From Desulfobacca sp. (GTDB lineage: Bacteria; Desulfobacterota; Desulfobaccia; Desulfobaccales; Desulfobaccaceae), in assembly GCA_020725545.1 (NCBI GenBank), contig DYEV01000017.1, positions 1 through 54,831 on the forward strand: DNA of 54,831 nt, written 5' to 3'. Below the pieces are notes generated by a model, which saw only the letters and a program-made list of their open reading frames with translations, was not told the DNA's origin and did no database searches. Within the stretch, counting starts at the first letter, position 1; each line of letters begins with the position of its first letter. A program made the translations under genes and the position numbers. Of this stretch, positions 1,024-19,013 are shown one piece after another.

Positions 1024-1893
1024 TCAGGGCGCCACAGGGGCCACCTGACCCATGCCTTTGGGCGTGCCATAGCCGATGCCGGCAAAGAAGGCAAAGCGCC
1101 ACAACAGATTGATGCAGCGCAAGACCTGGGGATCGGCACTTTTTTTGGCCCGGTATTCACAGTAGCCGGTGAAGCCGAGCTGCTGGCCGTGGGAGCCGAA
1201 GTTGAGGTTGCGGGTGCTGAGATGATAACCGGACACCATGAGATGAGCTTCCCAGATGGGGGCAGCAAGGGCCTCCAAGCGGCATTCCGGCGGGGAAAAA
1301 AGGTTCCAGCGCCGCAGGAGTTGGGGAAAGACCAGGGCGGGCTGGGGAAATAACACATTCCGGCCATCCTGTTTGAACGTGGTGGCGCTTAAAAACTTTA
1401 GCCCCAGGAGGGTGAACGGCTTCGCCTCCGGCCCCAGGCACGAGTCGGCCATTTCCCGGTACGTGGCCGCGGCGGCGCGGTCATGACTCCGGCTGGCTAT
1501 GTGGGTAATCTGGAAGCGGACCCGGCCCAGGTTCAGGGGCTCCAGCGGCCTGGCTAAAAGGTCCTGTAAGGCCGTCGACAGGTCCTGTTGCAAGGAGGTG
1601 ATCCGGAGCCAGTAGCTCCTTCCCGGTTCAATCTGGATGACGGGGGGGCGCCCACCGGCAGCACCGCCCATTATCTGCCTCTCCCCCCGGTTGCCGCCCC
1701 GGAGGCCGGACAGGGTAAAGGGGCGGTCCTGCACATCGGGATCGTGCAGTCTGTCAACCCAGCCATCGGCAGTGCGCTGGAGCAGGGTCATAAAAGCCCC
1801 GTGCACCAGGTGGCCGTTGGTGGCGGGGAGCGTCCCGCCCTGCAGGGCCCGCAGGTGGACGAGGAGGGCCAGTAACTCGGGAGCGTCAGACAT
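1024..1893 (-). CDS. cas6: CRISPR pre-crRNA endoribonuclease Cas6
   Basis: 289 aa RAMP-fold endoribonuclease that would cut the repeat RNA to make crRNAs for the Cmr complex. The C-terminal end carries the glycine-rich loop typical of Cas6 (GIGYGTPKGMGQV), and the preceding GYCEYRAKK region fits the second ferredoxin-like domain. The N-terminal half has the expected LLALLVHLRA helix and an NGHLVHGAF motif. I start at the ATG at 1893 (MSDAPELL), which follows the stop of the upstream TPR gene by two bases; the frame stays open further upstream but that would run into that gene. Cas6 is the last gene of the operon and is not fused to the RT-Cas1, unlike Cas6-RT-Cas1 proteins of some other bacteria. 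The catalytic residue cannot be assigned by eye because Cas6 active sites vary. Confidence 0.9.
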   Translation of the reverse strand: MSDAPELLALLVHLRALQGGTLPATNGHLVHGAFMTLLQRTADGWVDRLHDPDVQDRPFTLSGLRGGNRGERQIMGGAAGGRPPVIQIEPGRSYWLRITSLQQDLSTALQDLLARPLEPLNLGRVRFQITHIASRSHDRAAAATYREMADSCLGPEAKPFTLLGLKFLSATTFKQDGRNVLFPQPALVFPQLLRRWNLFSPPECRLEALAAPIWEAHLMVSGYHLSTRNLNFGSHGQQLGFTGYCEYRAKKSADPQVLRCINLLWRFAFFAGIGYGTPKGMGQVAPVAP

Positions 1894-1895
1894 GC

Positions 1896-4145
1896 TTAAC
1901 TTAATAACGAAGCCTGGATCTTTTGGAGCAGAGGATGGTGCGGGTCTATCTTGGCGGCTTGCTCCACCCACATCTTGGCGGCTTGAGGTGATAGAATATC
2001 CCGGGATAATCTGGCCAATTCCAATAAGGTCTGGAGTTTCTCAGCGGCCGGCATCTTTTTCGCCACGTCTTCATAGCGACCCCCGGCAGTTTCCAGGAAT
2101 TGCTGGGCCTGATCGCGCCGGTCGAAGCGGAGGGCAAAATCGGCCAGGGCAGTCAGCGTATACAGATTTTGGCCCCGGCTTTGATTAATTATTCGACGGA
2201 AGCACTCGGCCATCTGTTTCTGGTCGCCCTTGGCATCATAGCACAGACCCAGGACATGCCAAGCCGGGATGTTTTCGGGCCAGCGCCGAAGTAGGGTCTC
2301 CAATTGCTCCTGGGCCTTCTCTGCCTCTCCGGTCTGGAGCCACAGGTTGGCCTGGGCGACGAGCAGGCGGGGATTGTGGGGCTCCACCAGCAGAGCCCGG
2401 GCCACATATTCCTGGGCCAGGGCAAGGTTGGGATGGTCCAGATTCTCCCGGTTCAGGAGGGCCAGCTCCAGGAGAACGGCGACATTTTCCGGGGCCAGTT
2501 CCAGGGCCCGGTGCAGATGCTTGGCGGCCTCCTGCCATTGCCCGCGCCTCCGGGCCATATTTCCCAGGGAATGCAGGGCATACAGATTGCGCCGGTCCAG
2601 TTGCAACAGCCCCTGCCACGCCGTCTGAGCTTCCCCCCATTCGCCCCGGAAAAAATGCCAGCGGCCCCGGACATGCAGCACATAGATATTGTTCTTGCCC
2701 GGATCAAGCCGCTCTGCCTGCTCCACGTCCTGGTAGGCCTTCAGCCACTCGCCAGCCTCCAGATACATATCAGCCCGGGCTACCAGGGCGGGGATATTGC
2801 CAGAATCCAACCGCAGAGCCTGGGCAAAACACATTTCCGCGCCGCGGGAGTTCTGGCGTTCCGCCTCGAAGACGCCCCGGGCCTGCCAGAGATAAACGTT
2901 TTGGGGAACGGCTTCGCAGGCATCTGTGAAGGCAGCTCCGGCTTCCTCCTGCCGGGAAAGATCGACCTGGCTCCAGCGACTCAGCAGATGGGCCCGGGCC
3001 TGGAGCAGATAGACATTGCGCTGGTCTTGTTTGAGGGCGGTCTCGACAACCTCCTTGCCTTCCTTAAAGAGCCCGAGCCGCCCCAGACACTGGGTCCAGA
3101 TCAGGCGCTCCGCGGCGCTGCCGGCGTGGCTAAAAGTTTTGATCTGCTGCCAGTGCTTCGTTACCAGGGTGCGGATCTGGGAGAACTGAAAGCTCGTCCC
3201 CAGGGACCAGCGCCAACGGCTGTGGGCCAGCCAGCTTTGCAGGAGTTTTAGGATAACGTAGCGCTCCTCCCGTTCGGTAGACCGGCAGGCAGAGAAGAAC
3301 AGATCGTAGCTGTCCAGGGCAAGACCGCCGGCATCGGCCAGGATCCGGAAAAATCGCCGGGCATAGCCTTCTCCACGGGTGGACACCAGGAGAGCCGGAG
3401 GTTTCTCCCGCTCCACCCAGAAAAGAATGCCCTGCTGCGAGGCCTCCTCCACCACCTCGGCCAGGGTGTCCGGGTCGGCTTGGCTTAATTGCGCCAGCAG
3501 CTCCAGGGGCAGAGGCACGTCCCAGGCGTCTCCCAATACCACCCAATAGTGAGCCTGGCGCAGGATAGTGTTTCCCGTCTCTGCCAAATCCCGGTAAATC
3601 TGGTCGGTAGCGCCTGCTTCCCGCCGGGCAAAATCATTCGCCAACTGTTCCGGCTCAGATGAAAAATCGATAAAGTCCGGGAAGTAAAGGCAGGGAAGCT
3701 TCAAAGGCTGCTCTTCCCACATCTCCGCCGGTCCGGTGGCGATGGCCAGTCGCCCCGGCCTGACCCAACCCTCCAGGGTCAGGGCCAGGTTATGAAAGAG
3801 CGGGGCCTGGTGAATAATCCATACATTGACGCCTTCGCCCGGCGGGGGCAAATACGGCTTATCCAGGAATTGGGTAAACTGCGCCTGTTGCTTTTGCCAT
3901 AACAGCTCCCCGGCGATCAAACAGAGGAAATTCAGAAGCGTATGTTCCGCTTGAGGGGCTGAGGGAAATATGAGGACGCCGCCGGTATTTTGCCAACCCG
4001 GAATCGCCGCCAGGGTTTTTTGCCGCAGTTCCTGCAATTTTTCCAGATCAAAGAGATGAGCTCCCCAAACCGGTCGACCTTTCACATACAGGGAAGTCCA
4101 GTCTGGGAGGTCGTCTAACTGCTGCAGATAACTTGGGATAAACAT
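1896..4145 (-). CDS. Degenerate STAND-like / TPR-repeat protein in the CRISPR operon
   Basis: 749 aa. From about residue 330 to the end it consists of tandem helical TPR repeats, roughly ten, with the usual pattern (for example NIPALVARADMYLEAGEWLKA and WHVLGLCYDAKGD). The first 200 residues look like a P-loop NTPase of STAND type that has lost its motifs. A VLIFPSAPQAEHTLL stretch sits where Walker A should be but lacks the GK[ST]; VWIIHQAP replaces Walker B; RLAIATGP resembles a sensor strand. A winged-helix-like segment follows (about 205-265). This domain reading is inference. The chosen ATG at 4145 has GAGG ten bases upstream; a TTG at 4154 is also open. It overlaps the gene before it by 31 bp and abuts cas6, so it is translated as part of the CRISPR operon. 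It has no CHAT protease domain, so it is not the TPR-CHAT protein of type III-E. Confidence 0.8.
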   Translation of the reverse strand: MFIPSYLQQLDDLPDWTSLYVKGRPVWGAHLFDLEKLQELRQKTLAAIPGWQNTGGVLIFPSAPQAEHTLLNFLCLIAGELLWQKQQAQFTQFLDKPYLPPPGEGVNVWIIHQAPLFHNLALTLEGWVRPGRLAIATGPAEMWEEQPLKLPCLYFPDFIDFSSEPEQLANDFARREAGATDQIYRDLAETGNTILRQAHYWVVLGDAWDVPLPLELLAQLSQADPDTLAEVVEEASQQGILFWVEREKPPALLVSTRGEGYARRFFRILADAGGLALDSYDLFFSACRSTEREERYVILKLLQSWLAHSRWRWSLGTSFQFSQIRTLVTKHWQQIKTFSHAGSAAERLIWTQCLGRLGLFKEGKEVVETALKQDQRNVYLLQARAHLLSRWSQVDLSRQEEAGAAFTDACEAVPQNVYLWQARGVFEAERQNSRGAEMCFAQALRLDSGNIPALVARADMYLEAGEWLKAYQDVEQAERLDPGKNNIYVLHVRGRWHFFRGEWGEAQTAWQGLLQLDRRNLYALHSLGNMARRRGQWQEAAKHLHRALELAPENVAVLLELALLNRENLDHPNLALAQEYVARALLVEPHNPRLLVAQANLWLQTGEAEKAQEQLETLLRRWPENIPAWHVLGLCYDAKGDQKQMAECFRRIINQSRGQNLYTLTALADFALRFDRRDQAQQFLETAGGRYEDVAKKMPAAEKLQTLLELARLSRDILSPQAAKMWVEQAAKIDPHHPLLQKIQASLLS

Positions 4146-4945
4146 GTTATACAATCCTCGAGCTCAGCGCGCTTTTTCTGATCCAGGTGTTCCAAAAATC
4201 GCTGCCACTCTATCCGCAGCCGGCGATTGGCGGAATTCCAGGTATTTTGATTGAATTGAGACCCTAGTTGTCTTTTGGCTTGATTTTGGAATTGGAGATG
4301 CTGTGAATTTTCCTCTAAAAACAAAATGATTTGTATACCATCCTCTGAGGATATTTGCCGCAGCAATCGCAGTCGATCGTCCAAAGCCCGTGATCTGGTC
4401 AGCTGGGTAGAGGCGAATTGATCCAGTAGGTCTGCAGCCAGGCGTCGGCAGGTATCTAGAAAATCATCGCTGATTATCTTTTCTTCAGGAGTTAGGGAAG
4501 GGTCAATCACGACCAGCTCCCCCTGCGGTATCTGTTTATCCTTATCTTGGCTTTGATCTAAGCTCCCTGTGTCGAAATATTCGATCAATCGATCCATAAA
4601 CCGCAAAGGGATGACGGTCTTGACCAGATTGATGAAGCCCCCTAAACCTCTTTCCAGAAAATCCTCTAATGTCTTATTGGCTTTTATCCAGACCTGATAC
4701 TCTAAAACCAGAGCAAAGGACATGTCGTTGAGGGTTTCAACAATCCCTTCAACAGGATTGTGGGGAATTTCCCTTGCCAACTTTACCGCCGAAAATTTTT
4801 TTAGGGCTTGACCGGTGGCAAAATAACTCATATTCTTGGCAAAGTCTGAATCGAGCCAGACCTTGCGGCCGGCCTCGCGACTGCAGCCCAACCAGGTGTT
4901 CACGTCTTCCAGCGTAAATGTCACGGTCGGTTCTGGTTCCGGCAT
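4115..4945 (-). CDS. Uncharacterised CRISPR-operon protein, weakly sigma-factor-like
   Basis: 276 aa, not recognised. It is soluble and mostly helical, with higher AT content than the surrounding cmr genes. Two stretches recall sigma-70 family proteins: about residues 90-125 (a helical segment ending VIPLRFMDRLIEYF, then an acidic linker and SLTPEEK), and the C-terminal part, where QLGSQFNQNTWNSANRRLR looks like a helix-turn-helix with recognition helix. The resemblance is by eye and may be spurious. Its ATG lies four bases after the stop of the DHH gene, whose last codons supply a GGAGG. Its 3' end overlaps the TPR gene by 31 bp. The tight coupling implies the three products are made together. 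It could instead be a new helical adaptor. Confidence 0.7.
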   Translation of the reverse strand: MPEPEPTVTFTLEDVNTWLGCSREAGRKVWLDSDFAKNMSYFATGQALKKFSAVKLAREIPHNPVEGIVETLNDMSFALVLEYQVWIKANKTLEDFLERGLGGFINLVKTVIPLRFMDRLIEYFDTGSLDQSQDKDKQIPQGELVVIDPSLTPEEKIISDDFLDTCRRLAADLLDQFASTQLTRSRALDDRLRLLRQISSEDGIQIILFLEENSQHLQFQNQAKRQLGSQFNQNTWNSANRRLRIEWQRFLEHLDQKKRAELEDCITCLSQVICSS

Positions 4946-4949
4946 CTTC

Positions 4950-5771
4950 TCAGGTTGCCTCCCTGATTATGCTGATAAGCTTATCTTTGCTAAGTCGGGA
5001 ACCTAAGTAAGGTCCTCCGATAATCTTGCCGTGGGCCGGTCCACCCCAACCAGGTTCGCTCCGGTTCAAGCTATCCCGGAGATTTTCCAACTTATTGGAA
5101 TGACACGCAATAGTAACTTTGGACAGGCCCGCGGCCACGCTCACCTCGCAACCCAGCCTTTTCAGCAGACCATGGACCCCAGGCAGCGGCGCCTCCAGAT
5201 ATCCCCCCCACAGGCCGCTTTTGGTGGAAAAAAATTCCACCTGACAGGCGTACGAGTCCAGGTCCCGGTAAAGCTTGAGTTTGGCCTGGCGAAAGCCTTC
5301 CCACTCCGGCAACAGGGGGAGAGGTTGCCAGGGGCTTAAGCTCAGGCCCACCACGGTGCGGCACAGTTCGACGCCGGCCCGGAACTGGGCCAGCGGGTCG
5401 GATACAATCAACCTCAGCCCGGAGAAGAGAGCAGACAGGGACCAACCCCGGCCCTGAAAGAGGCAGCCCCGGCCCAGATCCACAGCGGCCACATATTCCG
5501 CCCAGTCCCACAACGCTGGATCTGCCGGCTCCCGCCAGTGCAGGGCCTGGAGGCAGGCCGGCGGCAAGGACAAGGTAGTGTTGTGGTGGTCAAAGTTGCC
5601 CAGCTCCAACTGGCCGCTGCCGCCGCACTCCAGGCAATACACCCCGGGGTCAGCCAGGATCTCCGGCGGCGCCTGGCCCGAGACCTGACGCACCGCATCC
5701 CCCTGCCGCCAGCCCAGCAGGAAGGCGGTGAAGACAGTGTCCAGGTCGGGTTTGTGGATGATGTATTTCAT
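4950..5771 (-). CDS. DHH-family phosphoesterase-like protein
   Basis: 273 aa. The N-terminus carries a DHH motif I (H6-K-P-D9-L-D11) and a true D61-H62-H63 signature, followed by a later aspartate in YVAAVDLG (D98). These are the metal ligands of the DHH superfamily, which includes NrnA/GdpP-type phosphodiesterases acting on short or cyclic nucleotides and inorganic pyrophosphatases. The motif II aspartate is not obvious; an acidic CLECGG stretch lies in its place. The glycine-rich C-terminus (GPAHGKIIGGPYLG) may be a degenerate DHHA1-like substrate domain. The gene lies 38 bp after the Can1-like CARF nuclease gene, so a plausible role is to degrade the cyclic or linear oligoadenylate signal. 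That role is inference: ring nucleases known to me belong to other folds. Confidence 0.8.
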   Translation of the reverse strand: MKYIIHKPDLDTVFTAFLLGWRQGDAVRQVSGQAPPEILADPGVYCLECGGSGQLELGNFDHHNTTLSLPPACLQALHWREPADPALWDWAEYVAAVDLGRGCLFQGRGWSLSALFSGLRLIVSDPLAQFRAGVELCRTVVGLSLSPWQPLPLLPEWEGFRQAKLKLYRDLDSYACQVEFFSTKSGLWGGYLEAPLPGVHGLLKRLGCEVSVAAGLSKVTIACHSNKLENLRDSLNRSEPGWGGPAHGKIIGGPYLGSRLSKDKLISIIREAT

Positions 5772-5809: not shown

Positions 5810-7855
5810 CTATAAAGTGGCTTGTCGCCTGTCCAATGCTTGCATGACCAAATTTTTCAACATATTCGGTTGGTTTAGGAGGCTCAGATTAATTTCCAGA
5901 GGTTCGAATTTAATGCTCGCTATGGCCCATTCTATGGCCTCATTATGGTTGATACCGGGTCTTATCAGAACCGGCAGGGTAAACCTTCCCAATTGGGATC
6001 TGGCCTCAGCGACAATTTCGTTCCGCACCGCTTCCCAGTCAAGGTCTGGAGGGCTCGTGCTCTTGCAGGAAATGGCAATATACTGTCCTTGCCATTGGAG
6101 AACAATATCGATTTCCGATCTGAAATAATTCTGTGGCATAGGGTGCAGCCAGGCCCAACGAATCCCCACCGTTAGATCGGAAATCTTTTTCCCGCCGGCG
6201 GCCAGAAAGGCCCCGGCCACCGCTTCTTCTAGCCAGTGCCCGAAGTCACCGAAACTGGTCACGGTTCCTTCCAGCTTATTCCCATTATTACAGGCTTGAA
6301 ATTGGATTTTCTCTGCGCTAGGAAAAACATCAACGCAGGTAATATAATTGCTGTCGTCTACTTGAATTTGCTCTCCTGCTTGCCAGCATGGCGGCCAAAA
6401 ACGTTTTCTCGGGTTACGTTTAACCTGTTTTGCGACGACATTAATCAGGTTCGAGAGAAAATTTTTTTTTGTCGAAATTTCTACGAGGCTGATACCCTCT
6501 GAGACCAGGCGCCCCCCGACACAAGCCGCCTGAATGGCGATCTCTGGAAAACCAAAATTGCGAGGGCACAAGCCTGGACCAGGAACCAGGGGCTGGATAC
6601 TTTGTGACTGATTATAGAGAGACCATAACCTCACGTTCGGCAGTCTCGCCAAATTCCAGGACTGAGCCTTTGTGCCCGGTGAGATGTTTAACTCCCAAGA
6701 ACCATCTTGAAGCAGATTTCCAAAAGCCTCCGGGTCCTCAATCCTGCCTTGCATATTCGTGGGCCAGAATATCATAGATTGACATTTCACATAATCCCTG
6801 ATGAGGAAGAGGCGGTGGGCCATGACCTTTACCCAAGGGGTTTCCCAATCAACCAGGATGATGGCTCTCTGCGGTGCGTGGCTATAAAGAGCCAACAGCG
6901 TGGCGCTGGGATCGGCCCCCAAAGCTACGATCAAACCTGTCCCATCCTGCCAATCGCCTTTGCACCGGTATGATTCTTTCAGTTTATCCGCCGGGAGTTC
7001 TGAATCTTCTGGGCCGGGTAACAGTTGCCCAGGGGGCTGGTTGAGATTCTGCTCCCAAGTGTCGGCGGTCTCAACGCCTTTTATCCCGTATGTGGCCGCC
7101 CGCTTCAGCATGAGAGTATCGTTGCTCAAAACAGTTAGGATTGGGCGTAATTGCATGATATGGTGCGGTGATTCCAGCAGAGCGGCGACCCGGCGGCACT
7201 CTTGTTTCAGACGGTGATTTTCGGACTCTTTAACCGCAGTGGAGTCTCGCCACAGCCGCACCAACCCATGCAGCCGGCCTTTCCGCTCCACGGCTTTGAG
7301 TAAGGCGAGGGGCGGAGGGGGGGTGAGAATGATTTTCAGGTTGTTCACTTCCTTATCAGAGTCGTTGACCGGCGGCTGCGTGGTGAGCCCATGCAAATCC
7401 AGCAGGGTCTTCAGCCCGATGTCCACCAGCTCCCATTTCTGCCCATCTTCTAAACTGTGCAAATAATTAAAATCTGCGTAGAGGGGCTTAATTCGGGGTT
7501 CGTCCTTAAGGTGATGGGAGATGAGGGCCACTTGGTAGTTGAGGCCAGGAGAAGTGTCATAGTAGATGGGCTCCGACAGCCCGCCCCCATTGATCTTCTG
7601 CCGGATAATATTCCAGGCTAAACTGTTTTGATCAGCCGTGGTCGTATCCAGGGCAATGAAGAGTGGCTCCACGGCCAAATTGGAGGCTAGATTTTGTAGG
7701 TAGGACTCCAGCCGCTGGGCTTCGGTTTTGGTATCCTTCGTATAAAGGAGAATGACCCGTTCAAGGGGATGATTAGTATCCATCTCCAGCAAGGTCCTGG
7801 CCGTGACGGCCACGGCGGCGGGCTGCTGGCCCACCAAGGTTATGAGTGTACTCAA
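5810..7855 (-). CDS. Can1-like CARF-domain nuclease (type III CRISPR effector)
   Basis: 681 aa. The N-terminal domain has CARF features: an ILSTLITLVGQQPAAVAV strand-helix start, ILLYT, and a ligand-loop motif DTSPGLNYQ near residue 100. A second Rossmann-like region follows in the middle (GLIVALGADPSATLL...), consistent with tandem CARF domains. The C-terminus is a PD-(D/E)XK nuclease: an E in HWLEEA (about 540), EIDIVL (about 580) and ISCKS (about 597). This order and length fit Can1, which nicks DNA when bound to cA4. I choose a TTG start at 7855 because it overlaps the cmr6 stop as TTGA and has GGAGGG seven bases upstream; the longer ATG frame would run 94 bp into cmr6. Expected activator: cyclic oligoadenylate from Cas10. 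Confidence 0.88.
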   Translation of the reverse strand: MSTLITLVGQQPAAVAVTARTLLEMDTNHPLERVILLYTKDTKTEAQRLESYLQNLASNLAVEPLFIALDTTTADQNSLAWNIIRQKINGGGLSEPIYYDTSPGLNYQVALISHHLKDEPRIKPLYADFNYLHSLEDGQKWELVDIGLKTLLDLHGLTTQPPVNDSDKEVNNLKIILTPPPPLALLKAVERKGRLHGLVRLWRDSTAVKESENHRLKQECRRVAALLESPHHIMQLRPILTVLSNDTLMLKRAATYGIKGVETADTWEQNLNQPPGQLLPGPEDSELPADKLKESYRCKGDWQDGTGLIVALGADPSATLLALYSHAPQRAIILVDWETPWVKVMAHRLFLIRDYVKCQSMIFWPTNMQGRIEDPEAFGNLLQDGSWELNISPGTKAQSWNLARLPNVRLWSLYNQSQSIQPLVPGPGLCPRNFGFPEIAIQAACVGGRLVSEGISLVEISTKKNFLSNLINVVAKQVKRNPRKRFWPPCWQAGEQIQVDDSNYITCVDVFPSAEKIQFQACNNGNKLEGTVTSFGDFGHWLEEAVAGAFLAAGGKKISDLTVGIRWAWLHPMPQNYFRSEIDIVLQWQGQYIAISCKSTSPPDLDWEAVRNEIVAEARSQLGRFTLPVLIRPGINHNEAIEWAIASIKFEPLEINLSLLNQPNMLKNLVMQALDRRQATL

Positions 7856-9141
7856 GATTGACCCTCCGGCGCTACGGTCATTTCCCCATACCCCAATGCC
7901 GTCTTGGCGCCAAGCCCAAATTCGCCCAGAGCCCGTGTCAGCCACTGACCCGCTATCTCCAGAAGTTCCTTATCCTGGGAGGTAAGCAGGAGCTGAAAGG
8001 TGACGCCCGGGGCCACGGTGAGGAAGTAGTTGGGCACCGGGCTGTAGTAGTCGGCGGGCGGATTGTGTTCCGGATCGCTGTAATATTGCTGGTAATGGAC
8101 ATTGATGATGTCCAACTCAAAGAGCTGCCCCTGAACCTGAGGAAAAGCATCGTAAAAGCAGACCTCGCCCCGACACTCCTGGCTGCCGAAGATCTGGCGG
8201 TAGTGGCAGCTCGCCTCCTCCTCCCAGACGTCAAAGAAGGCTCCTGGTTTGCCGGAGAGAAGGTCCCCTTGGGGATAGTCCTGGAGATACGGTAAGGTTT
8301 GAATCTTCTGCCACACTTTTTGCATCTCCTCTTTGATCTTCTTCAGTTCCTTCTGCAGAACCTGGCAACTCTTCCCTGCCCCTGGGAAAAGAATCAGCTT
8401 TTCCAGTAACTCCAAGGGGGTGAGTTTTTTGGGTTTGCTCTCATGCAGGTTATTGATATCCTCGGGCTGCAGGCGGGGGATACCGAATTTTGCCGCCAGT
8501 TCCGCCAAGGCCCAGGAGCGGCAGATCCCCTTGAGGGCCGTGCCCGGCAGGTAAGGCACGCCGTACAGCCGGTGCAGAGTCAGGCCGGTCTCCAGGGGCG
8601 TGGTGTTGCCGAAACCGATGGACAGACGCGCCCCGGTCTTGGCCGTCCTGGCCCACAATTCCAGGCCGGAGATATTTTTTAGGGTCTTTAAAGTGTTTAT
8701 CAGTTCCTGCTGCCGCTGCCAGCCATGTGAAGCGGCGCCTTGGGCTCGCAGACGGTCGGCCAGGGACACCAGGTCTTTCCATAAATTCTTCTTGTCAATC
8801 TCGGTGAATTGTTCATCCTGATATGGCAGCAGGCGCTGCAGGGCCAGGGAGAAATTATCGCATTTCTTCCAAGCCAGCGCATCATCCCCACGAACATCCC
8901 GGGGCAGAGGAAATATGGTCTTGGCCTGGTTGGTTGGCGAGGGGCTGTTGCCACCCGAGCCGGTTTTTCCCCCCGGCTTGCCCTTATATTTTTGCTTCCC
9001 GCTCGACGGCGAGGCCGCAGCCAGAGGCTTCGGGGCCGCAGCCGCGTTTAAACGCCTTTGCCAGTAGGGAGAGGCTTGGGAGGGGCCAGAGGCTTCTTGA
9101 AAACGCGACGCGGTTGGTTGGTTGGCTTCCCGGTCGGCCAT
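7852..9141 (-). CDS. cmr6: Type III-B RAMP protein Cmr6
   Basis: 429 aa. RAMP-superfamily subunit that caps the backbone of the Cmr complex near the crRNA 3' side. Family hallmarks are TGLTLHRLYGVPYLPGTALKG, a mid-protein FGSQECRGEVCFYDAFP segment, and the C-terminal G-rich loop LGAKTALGYG. It is longer than usual because of an N-terminal tail of about 90 residues that is low in complexity (Ala, Ser, Pro, Gly, Lys) and probably disordered, plus a lysine-rich helical insertion around 240-270. The start follows the cmr5 stop by three bases. The 3' end overlaps the Can1-like gene by four bases, which suggests coupled translation. Confidence 0.93.
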   Translation of the reverse strand: MADREANQPTASRFQEASGPSQASPYWQRRLNAAAAPKPLAAASPSSGKQKYKGKPGGKTGSGGNSPSPTNQAKTIFPLPRDVRGDDALAWKKCDNFSLALQRLLPYQDEQFTEIDKKNLWKDLVSLADRLRAQGAASHGWQRQQELINTLKTLKNISGLELWARTAKTGARLSIGFGNTTPLETGLTLHRLYGVPYLPGTALKGICRSWALAELAAKFGIPRLQPEDINNLHESKPKKLTPLELLEKLILFPGAGKSCQVLQKELKKIKEEMQKVWQKIQTLPYLQDYPQGDLLSGKPGAFFDVWEEEASCHYRQIFGSQECRGEVCFYDAFPQVQGQLFELDIINVHYQQYYSDPEHNPPADYYSPVPNYFLTVAPGVTFQLLLTSQDKELLEIAGQWLTRALGEFGLGAKTALGYGEMTVAPEGQS

Positions 9142-9144
9142 AGC

Positions 9145-9585
9145 CTAAGCCTCCTCCGTCTTGGATTCCAGTCCGCTGACCACCAGCTTGAGATAGTTCA
9201 GAAGTTTTAAGGTTTCCACCGTGGCCCGGAGATAGGTCCGGCTGTTGTTTTCCCGGATTTGTGCCAGGAGGACCCCCGCGTTATAGTCCACCCCATAGGG
9301 CGGGGCATAGTGGTCGAAATCAAGGTTGACATCACTCTTGGTCAGCCAGCGCTCCAAGTGTTCCAGGAGCAGTCCCTCGGCATTTTTGCCCTGCTTGGTC
9401 TTCTTGGCCGCCAAGGAGGCCAGGGCCTGACCCAGGCCGTTGGCATTCACCATAGCCGGGAACTTTCTCACCAGGGCCGCATACCGGGAAAAATCCCCCT
9501 TTTGGGCTTCCGTGGCAAACTGAAATGCCGCCCAGTAGCGCATCTGCTCCAAAGTCTGCCGTTTCGATGGACTTGCCCCGTTCAT
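9145..9585 (-). CDS. cmr5: Type III-B small subunit Cmr5
   Basis: 146 aa all-helical small subunit of the Cmr effector, forming the minor filament along the target RNA. The N-terminal QTLEQMRYWAAFQFATEA helix and C-terminal YLRATVETLKLLNYLKLV helix are characteristic. The length fits the family. The start codon overlaps the cmr4 stop as ATGA, and cmr6 begins three bases after the stop, so it is translationally linked on both sides. Confidence 0.93.
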   Translation of the reverse strand: MNGASPSKRQTLEQMRYWAAFQFATEAQKGDFSRYAALVRKFPAMVNANGLGQALASLAAKKTKQGKNAEGLLLEHLERWLTKSDVNLDFDHYAPPYGVDYNAGVLLAQIRENNSRTYLRATVETLKLLNYLKLVVSGLESKTEEA

Positions 9586-10544
9586 GACGTCCCTCCCGGA
9601 GACACGGCATAATACCGGAGCCGCACCAGGCCCCGACCCACGGTCTCGTCGCCACCCATTTGCAGGATCTTGCCCTCACGGATAATGTTCTGCAGAAATT
9701 CCATGCTCTTCTGGGCCTCCTGCCGGCCGTTGTTCTTCAGGGGAAGATTCTTGGCCAAGGCCAGGGAGTAAAGCAGGGTGTCGGCCAGGAGCAGCTCCTG
9801 GCTCCACAGGGCGCCGCTTTCCACCGTGCCGGTCTCGCCGATGCGGATACGGGTCACTACTTCGGTGGAAAGATTGACAAAATCCTGAAAATAATCATCA
9901 GGCACCACCACCAGGGACTTTTCCAGGCGGTTTTTGATATAGCCATAGACCGTTTCGCATGGCATGGCATTATCTTTTAGCCAGGTAGCCAGCCGGCCAA
10001 TGGCCTGGGTCTGACTGACATCCTGTTCCAGAGCCATATCCTCCAGGATGACCTTGCCGATTTGTTGACCATCCTCTTTCAGGGCTACCTGACACGGGTT
10101 GGCGGTCAAAGCCTTGTCATCCAAAGGCTGGAGCTCGGCGATGGCCTCCATGACCTCACCTGCCTCTCCCAGCATGTGCAGCCGGCGCCGGAAGCGTTCC
10201 AAGACCATGGGGCAGGTAATCCAAGCAAACCCGCCCGCAAAGGACCGCACCGGGAAGAGCAGCACCTGGGCATCGGTAAAGGCCAGAGAGCCGCTGTGGT
10301 CGCTGGTCTGTTCCGTGGCGGGGCCGAAGACTCGGATGATTTCTTGCCGTTTACCATTGTCTGACCCGTACAGTCCCTCGCTCCAGTCCCGGCAGGCCCC
10401 CTTGACGCCGCTGGCCTGGATAATGGGATAGTTGGTATGCCGCTCCCGTTGCAGGGGCAGGTCCACGTGGGAAATATTGGTGCCGCTGCCGGCGTGCAGG
10501 GGCGTTTCGCAGTAGAAAAAGACTATGGCTGCTTTTTTGAACAT
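9582..10544 (-). CDS. cmr4: Type III-B backbone RNase subunit Cmr4
   Basis: 320 aa RAMP protein that forms the repeated backbone of the Cmr complex and cleaves target RNA at 6-nt intervals. The conserved loop LHAGSG...HVDLPLQRE is present; D28 in VDLPLQRE corresponds to the catalytic aspartate known for this family, so the subunit should be an active RNase. YPIIQASGVKG is the following family motif. I use the ATG at 10544 because GGGAGGG lies five bases upstream; the frame is open to 10568, but that would overlap cmr3. Confidence 0.94.
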   Translation of the reverse strand: MFKKAAIVFFYCETPLHAGSGTNISHVDLPLQRERHTNYPIIQASGVKGACRDWSEGLYGSDNGKRQEIIRVFGPATEQTSDHSGSLAFTDAQVLLFPVRSFAGGFAWITCPMVLERFRRRLHMLGEAGEVMEAIAELQPLDDKALTANPCQVALKEDGQQIGKVILEDMALEQDVSQTQAIGRLATWLKDNAMPCETVYGYIKNRLEKSLVVVPDDYFQDFVNLSTEVVTRIRIGETGTVESGALWSQELLLADTLLYSLALAKNLPLKNNGRQEAQKSMEFLQNIIREGKILQMGGDETVGRGLVRLRYYAVSPGGTS

Positions 10545-10561
10545 CCTATCCCTCCCGGTGG

Positions 10562-11737
10562 TTACCACGTCCCCACGGCCGCCAGGCCAAAACTGGCCGC
10601 CGCCTGGAATTTATAATGTCTCATGAGGCTCTGAAAATGATAATGATTGATCAAAGTTAGGGCGTCGGCCTCAGTCAGCGCTTTCTCCAGCTCAAAAAAA
10701 TAAACGCTCCCCGCCGCCACCGCCCGCCGCAGCCGCCGGGGCGTCTGGGCAGCCAGATTCCAGCCTCCCACAGGTTCAGCCTTCCCCACCGCTGCCGCCA
10801 CCAGGGTGCCCGCCAATCCTTCCAGACGCCAGGTGCAGTCCGCAGGCTCCACATCATCCGGCAGCCACCCGGCCCGGAACAAGGCCGGGGTCATAAGATA
10901 AAGCCGGAAGCGATTCTCCCCAACCAGGGCAGCCTGCAATTCATCCCGGTGCGGCGGCAGCACCTCTGCTGAGAAAAGATCCGGCAACTCGTCCGCCTCA
11001 AGCCGTTGAAAATAAGCCGCCCGGGCCTCACCCCCCAAGGGCAGAAAACCCTGCTCCGGCAGGAGGTCGGCGACATCGCCGCTGCTATTGACCTCCACCA
11101 GGAGCGAGGCCCCCGCCGTCAATCGGGTAAATTCAACCATATAGATCTGCCCGGTCTCCGCGGTGCGCTGCGGCGTCAGGCGGATACCCAAACGCGGCTC
11201 GGGGATGGCTATTTCGGTTTGCCGCAGGATATCGGGCTCTGGGCGCCGCAGCAGGTAGGCCAAGAGTCTTTTCCCACGGAGATACAACGGTGGGCCTTGA
11301 TCCTCCGGCGATTTTACCCCCTCGGTGCGGCTTACCAGCTGGTACGGCAGGCTTGGCGGCGATAATGCCAACCCCGGCCACGCCGGCTCCACGGGCCGGA
11401 GGTAATCGGGATACATCTCCCCTCCCGTCTGCTTGCTCACCAGGATATCTTTGGGGGTTGGCAAGAGTGTCTCCTGACCTCCGAAGGAATCCCGCCCGAC
11501 CAGAAAAGGACCCCGAAAACGCAACTGACCCAGGTCATTCGGCCCGCCCAGCCGGTCATCCCTTTGGAACCCGGTGTGGTCCAAGTTCAGGTGGTAAAAC
11601 ATGGCGGCTCGCAGCGCCCCGGCCATGGTCAACGGCGTTGGCGGGAACTGACTGGCCGCCCGGATCACCTCCCCGGCGGTAAACGGGCGGCTGCCCCGAA
11701 ACAGCAACACATCCATTGGTTCTATTCTGAGCCACAT
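10562..11737 (-). CDS. cmr3: Type III-B RAMP protein Cmr3
   Basis: 391 aa subunit that binds the crRNA 5' handle and pairs with Cas10. The N-terminus MWLRIEPMDVLLFRGSRPF followed by PPTPLTMAGALRAA is diagnostic for Cmr3, and the C-terminal half shows the expected FRAGWLPDD region. It lies two bases after the cas10 stop and 17 bp before the chosen cmr4 start, in the usual cas10-cmr3-cmr4 order. Confidence 0.94.
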   Translation of the reverse strand: MWLRIEPMDVLLFRGSRPFTAGEVIRAASQFPPTPLTMAGALRAAMFYHLNLDHTGFQRDDRLGGPNDLGQLRFRGPFLVGRDSFGGQETLLPTPKDILVSKQTGGEMYPDYLRPVEPAWPGLALSPPSLPYQLVSRTEGVKSPEDQGPPLYLRGKRLLAYLLRRPEPDILRQTEIAIPEPRLGIRLTPQRTAETGQIYMVEFTRLTAGASLLVEVNSSGDVADLLPEQGFLPLGGEARAAYFQRLEADELPDLFSAEVLPPHRDELQAALVGENRFRLYLMTPALFRAGWLPDDVEPADCTWRLEGLAGTLVAAAVGKAEPVGGWNLAAQTPRRLRRAVAAGSVYFFELEKALTEADALTLINHYHFQSLMRHYKFQAAASFGLAAVGTW

Positions 11738-11739
11738 GG

Positions 11740-14634
11740 TTAGTCTTCCTTTCCCGCCAGGAACCGGCCCAACAGGAGGAGCTGCGTCAGGACCTCCCAG
11801 GGATCAAGATGTGATAACTCTGTCCTCTCTCGCTTTATATTACCCAGCAATTGCCAAATACCGTGCAGTGTTGCCGTGACTCGCTTCTGCGCCCCGGTCT
11901 TGCTGTGCTGTTTGGCCAGGCGGCCAACTTCCAGTTCCTGGGCTCGGGCCAGATCAAACTGGAGGGTTGACGGCATCGCCAGCCCCGGCGCCCAGCGGTG
12001 CTCCGCCAGCCGGTAAGGCAGGCGGCTGGAAAGCTCGTCCGCGGTCAAAAGCCCAACAATTTCGGCCAAGGCTTTCAAGGAACGGCAGGTATGGCTGTGG
12101 GGATCATAAGCAAAAGGCAGGCCGACCTCGGTGCTCTCCCCGGAGCGGCGCAGCAGCCGCACGGCCCAGGCATCCCGCCCCAGCTTCTGCTTGGCGGTCT
12201 TTTTTAACACTTCCGGGGCCAGTTCCAGGGCGTGATAGAGGGGATAGGAATGATGTACAATGATGGCTGCCATGCTGAGGGTCATGCCCTCGTGCGGCTC
12301 CTCGCCGGGGACGCCGGGGCGAACTCCTCCCAACAGGCGGCGCCACCGGCCCTTAATATCTTGATGGTCTTGCCGCAGGCCCCGAAACCCTTGATACAAC
12401 CCCTGCATTACCGGCAACAGGTGCGCCAGGGGCAGCAGGGCCAGGACATCGTCACCGCCGGCATAGATGAGTTTGCCGGCATGTTTTTCCTCCACCAGGG
12501 GACGCGCCTCATAGAGGGCGAAGTTCTTCAGGCTGTCGCTCAGAGCCAATTGCAAAGCCGGGCCTAGAGGCCGCGGGTAATTACTTACCGGCCACAGTCC
12601 CTTAAGGAGGTCATGCTCACGGACCTGGGGATGCAGCAGCCAGCGGAACTGCGGCGCCCTTTGGCCGGTGACCCATTCGCCCATCTTGTCCCCGTCCAGG
12701 GCCAGGATGGCGTAATACTTGGGTGGCGCATCGATGCCGGCGCTCTTCTTGGCCTGCGCTAACAAGACTGCCGCCGCCTCCTGGCACTCCTGGCGTCCTG
12801 ACGGATCGTGCAAGCCATAGGCTTGTTTCAGGGCCGCTTCTTCAAAGGAGTCGGGATAAAGCCAATCGCCATCCAGGCGCAAAAAAGCAATGCCGTTATC
12901 CACCTTTTGGCACCGCTGCGTCAAATAGTTTCCCGCAGCCGCCGGATAGGGCAGGTTATGATTCTCGGCGAATTTGGCGACTGCTTTGGTGTAGGTTGTC
13001 AATGCGGTGGCCAGATCGCCTTGCTGTTCCTTGACCGCCTCCAACAACCGGCCCCGCCAGGCCGCCGTGGCGATGCCCGCGGTGGAGGGAAAGAGGTGAT
13101 GATCCAGTTGTAATTCTTTTTCAAAGAAGGCTTCCAGAGCCAGACGCCGGGTGAGGCAGATGCTGCACAGGCTCTCGCCTTTGCGGATGCGGCCCAGGAG
13201 CTTCTGGCCGGACGCCCGGTCCAACTCCCCCAGGGCTTGCCAAAACTCCCGCAGCCAGCGGTAACTGTGGCGCTCAGCCGCTGGATTTTCCTTGATGACC
13301 CGGCTCTCAATCCGGTCAGCCACGGCCGGTATGGCCGCCAGGGTTTCCCAGGATGGATGCAGCGCCTCCCAGTCGCCGCACAGGGAGCATTTGTGCCCCG
13401 GTTCTTCCACCTGTTGGAAATCCCGCAGGTTTTTCCGGGCGGTCAGGGCCCGGCCGGTCAAACCGGATAGGAGGTGAAAGGTCTGGCCCACATGCAGCTC
13501 GTAACCTCGGGTCTGTAAGTTCCGGAGAAGTGTTTTAAAGTTATTGATCACGTCGGGTTTGAGGTCAGGCTCCACTGCCTTGATCACCGCCTCATGGTTA
13601 TTCCCCAAGGGGCAGACCACCCAATAAATGCCCAAACTGTCAATAAACTGGGCGGCCTGGCGCTCCCAGATCGCCTCCAGACCTGTATCGACTACCCTCC
13701 AGCCATTCTTTATAGCTTCTGTCACCCGATCGCGTACCTTGGTGGTCACCCTCTGCCAGCCCTCCGCCACTGCCTGGGCCGCTTTTTCAGCCAACTCCCC
13801 GGCGCGCTTAGCCGGCACCAGGGCCGCAAAGATATTGGGGATGCTGCCGATTTCCAGGGCCGACTTTTTCGGCGCCGCCAGCCCCGCTGCCCCCAAACCT
13901 TTCTCCTGAACCAGCCAATGGTCAACCAACGGCTGCTCCCGCAAGGACGGCGACAGGATGGCGTCCGGGCCGCAGACTTCGGCCACCGCCTTGATGGCCT
14001 GCCAGGAGAGGTATGAGAGCAAGTAGCTTCCCATCCAGGCGTCCTGGGTGCGCCGGGCCACGCTCACCGCCTTCTGGGCCGAAGCAATAGTGAAGAGCAG
14101 GATGGCCGGCTCCGGCAGCGCCCCGGCCACTGCTGATGCGACTGCGGCCTGTTCCCAGACCGTGTGCGACGGTATGCGGGGGTCGGCCGGCAGGATCTGC
14201 CACAGCTGCCCCAGCCCGGTGGAATCATCCTTAGCCAGCAGCTCCGGCAACAGCCGCCAGAGGGCCAGGAACAGGTGCTCGTCGTTTGAAGTTTTGGACT
14301 TCAGGTCCATCAGGACAGCCAAAACTTGTTGGCGCAGGGCGTCGGCAGAGAGCTCCTGGGGAAGGTGCAGCGGGATTTCCTGGGCCGACAAAGGATGTAT
14401 GAGGCATGGCTGCCGCCGGAAACAATCTTCCGGCAGGCCCTGGACAAAGGGTGGGATATCCAGGCCCGCGGCCAGGGCTGAACTTTTTACCACCGCGGCC
14501 AGATCAATGCCGCTCCCCGCACCCAAGATGGCAGCGAACAACTCATCCCGATGCGCTTCAGCCTCCACCGGATAGAGGGAATAATAAGGCAGACGATGGA
14601 GGAAGGTGGCGATCTTGGTTTGCCAAATATTCAT
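11740..14634 (-). CDS. cas10: Cas10 (Cmr2), cyclic oligoadenylate synthase subunit
   Basis: 964 aa large subunit of the type III-B complex. The second Palm domain keeps an intact GGDD at residues 726-729, with LDGDKMGEW in the preceding Palm strand region, so cyclic oligoadenylate synthesis should be possible. Two CxxC pairs (KCSLCG near 412 and LCSICL near 490) form the zinc-binding region. The N-terminal HD nuclease looks lost: the expected HD reads H-R (FLHRLPYYSLYPVEAEAHRDE), with no clear HD motif elsewhere in the first 100 residues. Target DNA cleavage by Cas10 itself is therefore doubtful. Its ATG overlaps the cmr1 stop by four bases. Confidence 0.95.
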   Translation of the reverse strand: MNIWQTKIATFLHRLPYYSLYPVEAEAHRDELFAAILGAGSGIDLAAVVKSSALAAGLDIPPFVQGLPEDCFRRQPCLIHPLSAQEIPLHLPQELSADALRQQVLAVLMDLKSKTSNDEHLFLALWRLLPELLAKDDSTGLGQLWQILPADPRIPSHTVWEQAAVASAVAGALPEPAILLFTIASAQKAVSVARRTQDAWMGSYLLSYLSWQAIKAVAEVCGPDAILSPSLREQPLVDHWLVQEKGLGAAGLAAPKKSALEIGSIPNIFAALVPAKRAGELAEKAAQAVAEGWQRVTTKVRDRVTEAIKNGWRVVDTGLEAIWERQAAQFIDSLGIYWVVCPLGNNHEAVIKAVEPDLKPDVINNFKTLLRNLQTRGYELHVGQTFHLLSGLTGRALTARKNLRDFQQVEEPGHKCSLCGDWEALHPSWETLAAIPAVADRIESRVIKENPAAERHSYRWLREFWQALGELDRASGQKLLGRIRKGESLCSICLTRRLALEAFFEKELQLDHHLFPSTAGIATAAWRGRLLEAVKEQQGDLATALTTYTKAVAKFAENHNLPYPAAAGNYLTQRCQKVDNGIAFLRLDGDWLYPDSFEEAALKQAYGLHDPSGRQECQEAAAVLLAQAKKSAGIDAPPKYYAILALDGDKMGEWVTGQRAPQFRWLLHPQVREHDLLKGLWPVSNYPRPLGPALQLALSDSLKNFALYEARPLVEEKHAGKLIYAGGDDVLALLPLAHLLPVMQGLYQGFRGLRQDHQDIKGRWRRLLGGVRPGVPGEEPHEGMTLSMAAIIVHHSYPLYHALELAPEVLKKTAKQKLGRDAWAVRLLRRSGESTEVGLPFAYDPHSHTCRSLKALAEIVGLLTADELSSRLPYRLAEHRWAPGLAMPSTLQFDLARAQELEVGRLAKQHSKTGAQKRVTATLHGIWQLLGNIKRERTELSHLDPWEVLTQLLLLGRFLAGKED

Positions 14635-15764
14635 AGAAGCTGATGTGCTCCCTTATCTCTCAAGATCTTGAGAAAATCATTTATGGCACGGTAATTGGGA
14701 AAATCTACATCCTGGATCACGCCTCCAGAGATCCGAATTTTTTTCCCTCGAGGAAGGAATTGCGCCGGCAGGAAAACTACCACCCCCATAGCCTGGCCGT
14801 CGTGCAAACCCTGGACGTGCAGGAACAGAGGACTAGCCCGACGACCTTTATTGCCCCCTTCCATCAAATCCACCCCCGCTTTCGAACCTTGACTGCGAAA
14901 AAAATAATTATGGGGCAGGCCAAAGGCCGATCGGGCAGGAGCAAATTTTGGGATGATTTTGCCATGTAAATAATCCAACATCAAATCGTGATCTTCCTTG
15001 GCAACTCCAGAGGTTTTTCTCGTTTTCGTTTTAAAATCAATGTAATACGAGCGATAATCTTGGAAAACTTTGTTCAAACCTTTTAGAACCATCATACTTG
15101 ACTTTAAAGCCGGTCCATAAATTATCTTGCTGCTTTTACTGAAATAAGAATAATTTGGCATGCTTGCCGATAGAGGTACATCTTTCAAAAAGTTCTGCAC
15201 ACACTTGACATACTCTTCAGTACTTATTAAGCGCCATCGCGGTATATAATTTTCGAGTTCTTTATGAATTCCCGAAAAACCAACTACTTTAAACGAACCA
15301 AACCCTCTGCGGCTGCGGGCCCCCAGGCCGCCAAACATAGCCAAGGCCCAAAAGGAACGCAGGATCTTAGCCCTGTCTGCTAGTCCCAACGAACTGTTGA
15401 AAGTGATGGTCAATTGCAATTCGGTGCCGCAGTCCAGACCTGGCCGAGTTGTCAGGTTTTTTTGGGCATTCTTGTCATAGCCCACCACACCATACCCAAG
15501 ATATGCGAAATCATGCAGTTTATCACTATTGGCGACTAGCGGTTTTGGCTTTAAAACACTCGTAGATAACCGCACAGGCGATTTGAACTCAGTATTCCCA
15601 AACAGCCTCCCCTCCTCCTGCAATGTATCCGGATATATCGCCCGGTACCAAAACCGCAGCAGGCCCTTCAGGCTGGCGGCCCGGAACTCCGGGGGGCCGT
15701 TTTGGTCGGCGCCGCCCATGAACATGGGAGTCACCAGTTCAATGTCAAAGGTAATCTTTTCCAC
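14631..15764 (-). CDS. cmr1: Type III-B RAMP protein Cmr1
   Basis: 377 aa RAMP subunit at the 3' side of the crRNA. The N-terminus has the family motifs: ITFDIELVTPMFMGG, then FRAASLKGLLRFWYRA and LFGN, and further on GGLGARSRRGFGSF. The start is GTG (15764) with GGAG nine bases upstream. Its central part is more AT-rich than its neighbours. It is the first cmr gene of the operon, 72 bp after RT-cas1, and overlaps cas10 by four bases. Confidence 0.94.
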   Translation of the reverse strand: MEKITFDIELVTPMFMGGADQNGPPEFRAASLKGLLRFWYRAIYPDTLQEEGRLFGNTEFKSPVRLSTSVLKPKPLVANSDKLHDFAYLGYGVVGYDKNAQKNLTTRPGLDCGTELQLTITFNSSLGLADRAKILRSFWALAMFGGLGARSRRGFGSFKVVGFSGIHKELENYIPRWRLISTEEYVKCVQNFLKDVPLSASMPNYSYFSKSSKIIYGPALKSSMMVLKGLNKVFQDYRSYYIDFKTKTRKTSGVAKEDHDLMLDYLHGKIIPKFAPARSAFGLPHNYFFRSQGSKAGVDLMEGGNKGRRASPLFLHVQGLHDGQAMGVVVFLPAQFLPRGKKIRISGGVIQDVDFPNYRAINDFLKILRDKGAHQLL

Positions 15765-18155: not shown

Positions 18156-18201
18156 CATACCTGAAAGAACCCAGCCCCCCGCCTTTTTCGTGCAGCCAGC
18201 G

Positions 18202-18578
18202 GCAAAAGTGTTGCGAAAATTTCGTATTGCCCATATTTGATAATCTCTTCGCATAGTTAAGCCGATTTTGCGCCGTTTGGGGCCCTTTGGGTAGAGGCCG
18301 AAAAGTTCGCAAAAGCCCCTTTTGGCCAGCGCGGCCCGGAGGTGTTGCGAAAAAACCGCCGGAGCCCGAAAAACGGCCAAGACAACATTTTGTTATTCCT
18401 GCTATAATTTGCGGCCCTGGCTGGCCCCGGAGGCCGATTTTCGCAAATGGCCTTTTTTCCGGGGCGCAGCAAAAGTGTTGCGAAAATTTGGAGTTAACAA
18501 TATCAATGAGTTAGGCCAAAAAGGGCGGTTTTAGGCAGAAATTGCCGGGGGCAAAAAGGGGGTTTTGCGAAAAAAACC
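18202..18578. repeat. Repeated TTGCGAAAA elements upstream of RT-cas1
   Basis: A 21-bp sequence ending in GTGTTGCGAAAATTT occurs exactly at 18202-18222 and 18469-18489. Shorter forms lie at 18342-18357 and 18563-18578. Near three of the copies is an inverted partner: TTCGCA at 18248-18253, TTCGCAA at 18306-18312 and TTTTCGCAA at 18438-18446, each 28-37 nt away. The region would be the 5' untranslated RNA of the cas operon on the minus strand. It could be a set of regulator sites or a structured RNA. There is no convincing coding sequence here. Confidence 0.75.
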
Positions 18579-18623: not shown

Positions 18624-18661
18624 ATTTGCAAGGAGGTTTATAACCGGTTGAAATGACCGGG

Positions 18662-18980
18662 GAAGCACTGGAGGAATTCCCGTTAGGGATTGGAAACTTA
18701 TTAATGCCTCATTTGGCGTTAAGCCATTTAAGGGAAGCACTGGAGGAATTCCCGTTAGGGATTGGAAACAGATTTAAAATTAAAAAACAAAAAATTGTTT
18801 TCATGGAAGCACTGGAGGAATTCCCGTTAGGGATTGGAAACACCGTGTCCCCAGTATCCTTCTTCAGGCTTTGAGAAGCACTGGAGGAATTCCCGTTAGG
18901 GATTGGAAACGCATGTAATAATGATCGCAACAGAAATGGAAAAAGAAGCACTGGAGGAATTCCCGTTAGGGATTGGAAAT
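18662..18980 (+). CRISPR. CRISPR array, 5 repeats and 4 spacers
   Basis: 36-bp repeats begin at 18662, 18734, 18806, 18875 and 18945. Each starts GAAGCACTGGAGGAAT and ends GGGATTGGAAAC. Spacers are 36, 36, 33 and 34 bp. The repeat can fold TCCC-gtta-GGGA, and cleavage at the base of that stem leaves exactly eight bases, TTGGAAAC, the usual type III handle length. The last repeat ends in T instead of C, marking the leader-distal end. The array is short, and its spacers are more AT-rich than the flanking DNA. It lies between the divergent RT-cas1 and cas2. Confidence 0.98.
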
Positions 18981-19013
18981 GGCAGGCGTATTTTGGGAGG
19001 CGGGCTCTGAACC

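Follow-up and report, generated by a model that had tools for sequence, protein, structure and literature searches.

A divergent DHH-type gene linked to type III CRISPR and CARF genes in Desulfobacca sp. encodes a candidate eraser of Cas10-made signals

What is a DHH-type protein doing in a type III CRISPR operon, directly beside a CARF nuclease? The question arises from a gene in the window (the whole stretch of Desulfobacca sp. DNA analyzed here, 54,831 nucleotides), for which the first-pass annotation had proposed a role in clearing oligoadenylates as an off-switch for type III signaling. The gene lies at 4950..5771 on the minus strand, begins with ATG and encodes 273 amino acids, exactly as annotated, and we describe it as a candidate, divergent DHH-DHHA1 gene on the basis of the ORF list, an alignment of relatives and a fold comparison. 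The surroundings were also as claimed. A CARF-PD-(D/E)xK effector gene (5810..7945, minus strand, 711 aa as listed) lies directly upstream, with PADLOC matches to CARF and Csx1/CARF_PDDEXK and the motif EIDIVLQWQGQYIAISCK, and the locus includes Cmr2/Cas10 (11740..14634, minus strand; Pfam/NCBIfam/PADLOC), a probable signal synthase. Its GGDD palm motif is intact at residue 726, so signal synthesis is plausible from the sequence.

The operon is of type III-B (Cmr) and runs on the minus strand from a reverse transcriptase-Cas1 fusion (15837..18380; PADLOC) through cmr1 (14631..15764; PADLOC), cmr2/cas10, cmr3 (10562..11737; Pfam, NCBIfam), cmr4 (9582..10568; TIGR02580), cmr5 (9145..9585; Pfam, NCBIfam) and cmr6 (7852..9141; TIGR01898). 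It continues with the CARF nuclease gene, the DHH gene, a gene for an all-helical protein of 276 aa with no family match (4115..4945; ORF and structure model), a gene for a TPR protein of 752 aa (1896..4154; Pfam) and cas6 (1024..1971; Pfam/NCBIfam/PADLOC). The true start of the CARF-PD-(D/E)xK gene is likely a TTG directly past the cmr6 stop (TTGA overlap). As the gaps flanking the DHH gene are short (38 nt from the end of the CARF gene to its start and ~5 nt from its stop to the start of the next gene), it is likely co-transcribed with its operon neighbors. A repeat search found a CRISPR array of 5 repeats at 18655..18981, and a 38-nt direct repeat (82% identical) was seen at 18199-18236 and 18466-18503, in the upstream region and start of the RT-Cas1 ORF. 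In its own genome the DHH-family gene is single copy, and three further DHH proteins, recognized as such by Pfam, are encoded elsewhere; a second Cas10 palm match (882-aa frame) lies outside the window, at G000:C32:66050-66454.

Relatives were sought in 488 genomes of the window's phylum (G000-G487), together with one contig scan reaching close relatives only. Intact or near-intact members were found in 10/488 genomes: the window itself, L002 (as in G025), L003 (as in G026), L014 (G374), L015 (G297), L016 (G199), L017 (G260, where the contig end cuts the member off), L018 (G280), L032 (G419) and L033/L036 (G406, a two-contig copy). Six genomes with weak, partial or decayed matches were left out of all counts. 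These were G196 (E 8e-4, partial), G449 (E 9e-19, yet with four stops; a decayed copy at the end of its contig, where inspection by eye showed no cas genes), G462 (a fragment of 58 positions), G448 (31 positions with one stop), G343 (internal stop) and G150, whose match is a MYG1 protein and was retained as a cousin only. The decayed or fragmentary copies in G449 (L029/L034) and G462 (L030/L035) lie away from visible cas genes; in L034 there is also a fragment resembling a group II intron. Searches of plasmids, phages and viral contigs yielded no relatives.

Searches of the window protein against Pfam (0 families, with no match to the MYG1 family PF03690), NCBIfam, PADLOC and PHROG gave no informative match, and sequence searches against the PDB returned nothing useful. 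The same was true of the relatives in Pfam (8 members scanned, none matching DHH or DHHA1) and in PADLOC and PHROGs (10 members). A PADLOC 'CARF6' match (E 7e-4) to the truncated member L033 only was taken as chance. Since Pfam, NCBIfam and PADLOC gave no match, motif reading was the sole basis for the DHH name before the fold comparison and a profile match to MYG1 were obtained.

The motifs in question are K-x-D-L-D (residues 7-11, reading K-P-D-L-D in the window protein), C-x-E-x-GG-x-G (46-53), N-x-DHH (59-63, with D-H-H at 61-63), Y-x-x-x-V-D (93-98) and GWGG...I..P..G (241-257). Across the 10-sequence alignment, in which pairwise identity is 28-64%, K7-x-D9-L10-D11, E48-x-G-G-x-G, N59-x-D61-H62-H63, Y93 and V97-D98 are invariant in 10/10. 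With the window protein as reference, 27 of the 273 columns are invariant, and they include all six canonical DHH positions (D9, D11, D61, H62, H63 and D98); the hypergeometric value for this, 5e-7, is indicative only, as the alignment was already in view when these positions were chosen. Invariance of the predicted catalytic residues (D9, D11, E48, D61-H62-H63 and D98) at this level of identity suggests that the active site is under selection. The first-pass annotation had named motif loss in homologues as evidence that would count against its proposal; instead, the core is retained in every aligned member. Its description of H-K-P-D-L-D and D-H-H as conserved was right for D9, D11 and D-H-H (10/10 each) but not for the leading His, as residue 6 is H in only 3 members, R in 4, E in 2 and Q in 1.

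The site nevertheless departs from the standard pattern. Canonical NrnA-type motif I is HxxxDxD, in which the His binds metal, and motif II usually has an Asp. Compared with NrnA-type proteins, the family has the D-x-D of motif I, the D-H-H of motif III and the Asp of motif IV in 10/10, but the metal-binding His of motif I is absent, position 5 being I or V in 10/10 where the NrnA set has H, and the motif II Asp is absent, with Glu48 in its place in 10/10. The DHHA1 signature GGGH of the NrnA set is likewise absent, and residues 241-244 read GWGG or GWSG with no conserved His after them. Because the motif-I His is missing and motif II has Glu, this is not a textbook DHH site, and the metal site may be altered or weakened.

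A structure model was made with AlphaFold from a three-sequence alignment (mean pLDDT 56). It is good in the C-terminal half only; residues 1-107 fall below a pLDDT of 50, so the model by itself lends no support to the DHH half. Of the 340 PDB matches from Foldseek, 7 reach E <= 1e-3, and every one of these is a DHH/DHHA1 protein (NrN in 4 cases), although their TM-scores, taken over the model, are low (0.24-0.30). The top fold matches also include NrnA, PggH and RecJ types. The 50 matches listed from VIA-align are, by title, DHH-superfamily chains, alanyl-tRNA synthetase C-terminal (DHHA1-like) chains or complexes holding one, and the best among those listed have Z 8.6 (rmsd 7.3, 155 residues) and Z 8.5 (2.7, 96 residues). 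This low-confidence model supports a DHHA1-like C-terminal half. The N-terminal half is predicted to be DHH from its motifs and from the best sequence-level match of the family profile outside itself, a MYG1_exonuc protein (PF03690, 20 bits). In that alignment E48 lies over the motif-II Asp, N-F-D-H-H over N-F-D-H-H, and motif IV is in register, although MYG1 differs in its motif I and in having Asp in motif II, and no CRISPR link was seen for it. NrnA/PggH/GdpP-type proteins resemble the family in the DHHA1-like C-terminal fold (VIA Z about 7-8) and in the motif order DxD, DHH, D, but not in the motif-I His, motif-II Asp or GGGH, and the family profile did not match any of five NrnA proteins from the same genomes (hhalign probability 1.6; negative scores).

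All 10 members have neighbors of type III or CARF type. In six (window, L016, L017, L018, L032 and L036) cas10 is on the same contig, and the remaining four (L002, L003, L014 and L015), whose contigs measure 5.6-12.4 kb, have a CARF protein, a Cas6-like gene or both next to the member. GGDD is kept in 6/6 Cas10 proteins inspected at member loci, and also in that of L094. Three output modules accompany the family; some neighbor names in L002, L003, L032 and L036 come from by-eye resemblance to tested proteins. The CARF-PD-(D/E)xK nuclease is present in the window, L003 and L014, and as a C-terminal fragment in L015. The second module comprises a sigma-70-like protein, a zinc-finger anti-sigma-like protein, a Lon protease with a CARF domain and a TraT lipoprotein, followed by Cas10; it was recognized by Pfam in L014 and L016 (of these two, only the L016 contig includes cas10) and by resemblance in L032 and L036. 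The third, in L017 and L018, is a sigma54-activator AAA+ protein with Cas10, whose AAA+ domain was Pfam-tested in both and whose CARF domain gave a sub-threshold Pfam hit in L018 only.

The CARF-Lon module (L014 4253-7901, L016 915-4979, L032 4257-8785 and L036 136-3935) may be the CARF equivalent of Calp, a system based on SAVED; in L014 and L016 the protease has Lon_C plus a Csm6-type CARF, and the anti-sigma-like genes are zf-HC2. The CARF-like sigma54-activator AAA+ gene (L017 1135-2622, L018 4384-5856) adjoins Cas10 and is divergent from the DHH gene, and its product is possibly a sigma54 switch driven by cyclic oligoadenylate.

A profile of the CARF nuclease matched 7/7 member-bearing genomes in a sample of 395, compared with 13/395 overall, and 5/5 compared with 11/393 when the two sample genomes that supplied profile sequences were removed. 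In G199, G260 and G280 the match is on another contig than the DHH gene. The profile also matched 6 member-less genomes of the sample, two of them weakly (E near 5e-4 to 9e-4), and G023, G027 and G028, from the window's genus and family, have Cas10 and no DHH gene; the DHH enzyme is therefore optional. A base rate for Cas10 was sought with PF22335, which matched 254/395 genomes, but an E. coli control was also above the cut-off, so this profile over-counts and was not used. A search for Csx3 was positive in 2/14 genomes; the frames in G199 and G374 are short, and one of them contains a stop.

Downstream of the DHH gene in the window, the helical protein and TPR protein form a gene pair (4115-4945 and 1896-4154) that recurs in L002 (1161-4390), in L003 (2315-5342) and, at a type III-B locus without the DHH gene, in L094 (10835-13638). 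The C-terminus of the helical protein reads F-N-x-N-T-x-x-S-x-N-R-R-L or a variant of it. The pair looks like a regulator pair. A link of the 276-aa protein to sigma factors is a guess from its helix pattern and position; hhalign against the sigma proteins of L014, L016, L032 and L036 gave it no support (probability 0.4), and the protein had no Pfam match and its model no fold match.

The gene, its place in the operon, the conserved core residues, a C-terminal half that is DHHA1-like and the linkage to type III/CARF genes in 10 genomes are observations; catalysis, substrate, metal use and an off-switch role are inferred. We propose that the protein would be a divergent DHH-DHHA1-type phosphodiesterase that depends on metal and is dedicated to CRISPR. 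The type III Cas10 would make a nucleotide second messenger. The DHH enzyme would clear this messenger, whether by breaking open the ring of cyclic oligoadenylate or by shortening the linear pieces that CARF cleavage leaves behind, and this clearance would limit or reset the adjoining CARF outputs. As Cas10 and a CARF sensor are what the three output modules have in common, the likeliest substrate would be the Cas10-made nucleotide signal or its linear fragments, and not the target of any one effector. We put the probability that the enzyme removes the Cas10-made signal, in whatever way, at about 0.55; direct opening of the ring is a good deal more tentative. An off-switch is the best-supported reading, given the type III/CARF linkage in 10/10, the three unrelated CARF outputs and the preserved core of the active site. 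What counts against it is that a CARF domain is able to cleave the ligand it binds, so the system need not have a dedicated eraser.

Among the other readings, the one that survives best is a nanoRNase-like exonuclease for linear oligonucleotides, which would clear linear A2>p/A4>p, or short RNA and DNA fragments from the CARF nuclease, and leave the ring untouched. The NrnA, PggH and RecJ types among the top DHH-DHHA1 fold matches fit this, as does the position of the window gene directly downstream of the CARF nuclease, but in L017 and L018 no CARF nuclease adjoins the gene (the profile match is on another contig in G260 and G280), and the window's genome already has three Pfam-recognized DHH proteins elsewhere; we consider such a clean-up role rather unlikely. 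An eraser whose signal is not cyclic, be it SAM-AMP or a different nucleotide conjugate, is less likely again. The known CRISPR-encoded DHH eraser NrN, which accounts for 4/7 Foldseek matches with E <= 1e-3, acts on SAM-AMP, but no CorA was found among the neighbors scanned with Pfam, and the sensors here are CARF proteins, which in published systems bind cyclic oligoadenylate. It is improbable that the protein is an additional effector, a MYG1- or RecJ-like DHH exonuclease acting on RNA or DNA during the response: operons of this kind do cluster effector genes and the best outside profile match is to MYG1_exonuc, yet no CARF, SAVED or other sensor is fused within its 273 aa, and the gene accompanies full effectors and does not replace them. 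A catalytically dead or binding-only protein (a signal sponge or structural partner), which the absent motif-I His and the motif II Glu in 10/10 might suggest, is very unlikely in view of seven strictly invariant core residues (D9, D11, E48, D61, H62, H63, D98) at 28-64% pairwise identity.

How new would a DHH off-switch be? The nearest precedents are two DHH-DHHA1-type enzymes, NrN and the membrane-associated nuclease MAD. MAD is not known to lie within a cas operon. According to reviews, MAD of Sulfolobus islandicus is reported to degrade cyclic oligoadenylate (Zhao 2020), a likeness to the activity proposed here, and it is set apart from the window family in being archaeal and membrane-associated. 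NrN, from a Bacteroides fragilis type III-B locus and the one CRISPR-encoded DHH enzyme with tested substrates in the literature searched, degrades SAM-AMP and did not cleave cA2-cA6 or pApA (Chi 2023), a substrate range that, by analogy, counts against cyclic-oligoadenylate activity here. Like the window protein, NrN (PDB 9lq9, 9lqa-9lqc) is a small DHH-DHHA1-type protein inside a type III-B locus with an off-switch logic, and it is among the best Foldseek matches. It differs in working with CorA and SAM-AMP, where the window family occurs with CARF modules and no CorA was found; the comparison is one of context and fold. With MAD and NrN as precedents, a DHH off-switch is not new in principle, and the first-pass annotation went too far in suggesting a new type of off-switch. 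Its reading as such gains from the linkage in 10/10 and the intact core, and loses from these precedents and from a site that is not textbook DHH.

The ring nucleases Crn1-Crn5 (Csx3, DUF1874, Csx16/Csx20, Crn4) are likewise type III accessory genes that remove the Cas10 signal, but their folds differ from the one predicted for the window family. The setting is that of a ring nuclease, a type III locus with an active-site Cas10, in that type III/CARF neighbors occur in 10/10 and GGDD in 6/6. A word search found no 'DHH' in the main text of the 2024 effector census, the 2025 ring-nuclease census, the 2025 CRISPR classification or the Crn4 paper (PMC11229360, PMC12409355, PMC12669027 and PMC12830947). 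A CARF-associated DHH family with an altered metal site thus appears undescribed in the literature searched, though an earlier mention in Shah 2019 or Makarova 2020 is possible.

The most specific form of the proposal is one we hold with considerable doubt: a DHH ring nuclease, dedicated to CRISPR and rebuilt at its metal site, would be a portable off-switch shared by at least three CARF outputs that are unrelated to each other. If it is true, one enzyme would serve a Lon protease output that frees a sigma factor, a nuclease and a sigma54 activator, and the family would add another fold class to the type III ring nucleases Crn1-Crn5. Recent surveys state that a signal-degrading enzyme accompanies most active type III systems and that new ones should come to light among the exceptions; a fold-distinct eraser that acts with nuclease as well as transcriptional CARF outputs would explain some of these exceptions. 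Its presence would also mark those type III loci whose response is transcriptional, and cyclic oligoadenylate signaling would gain a point of control that depends on metal.
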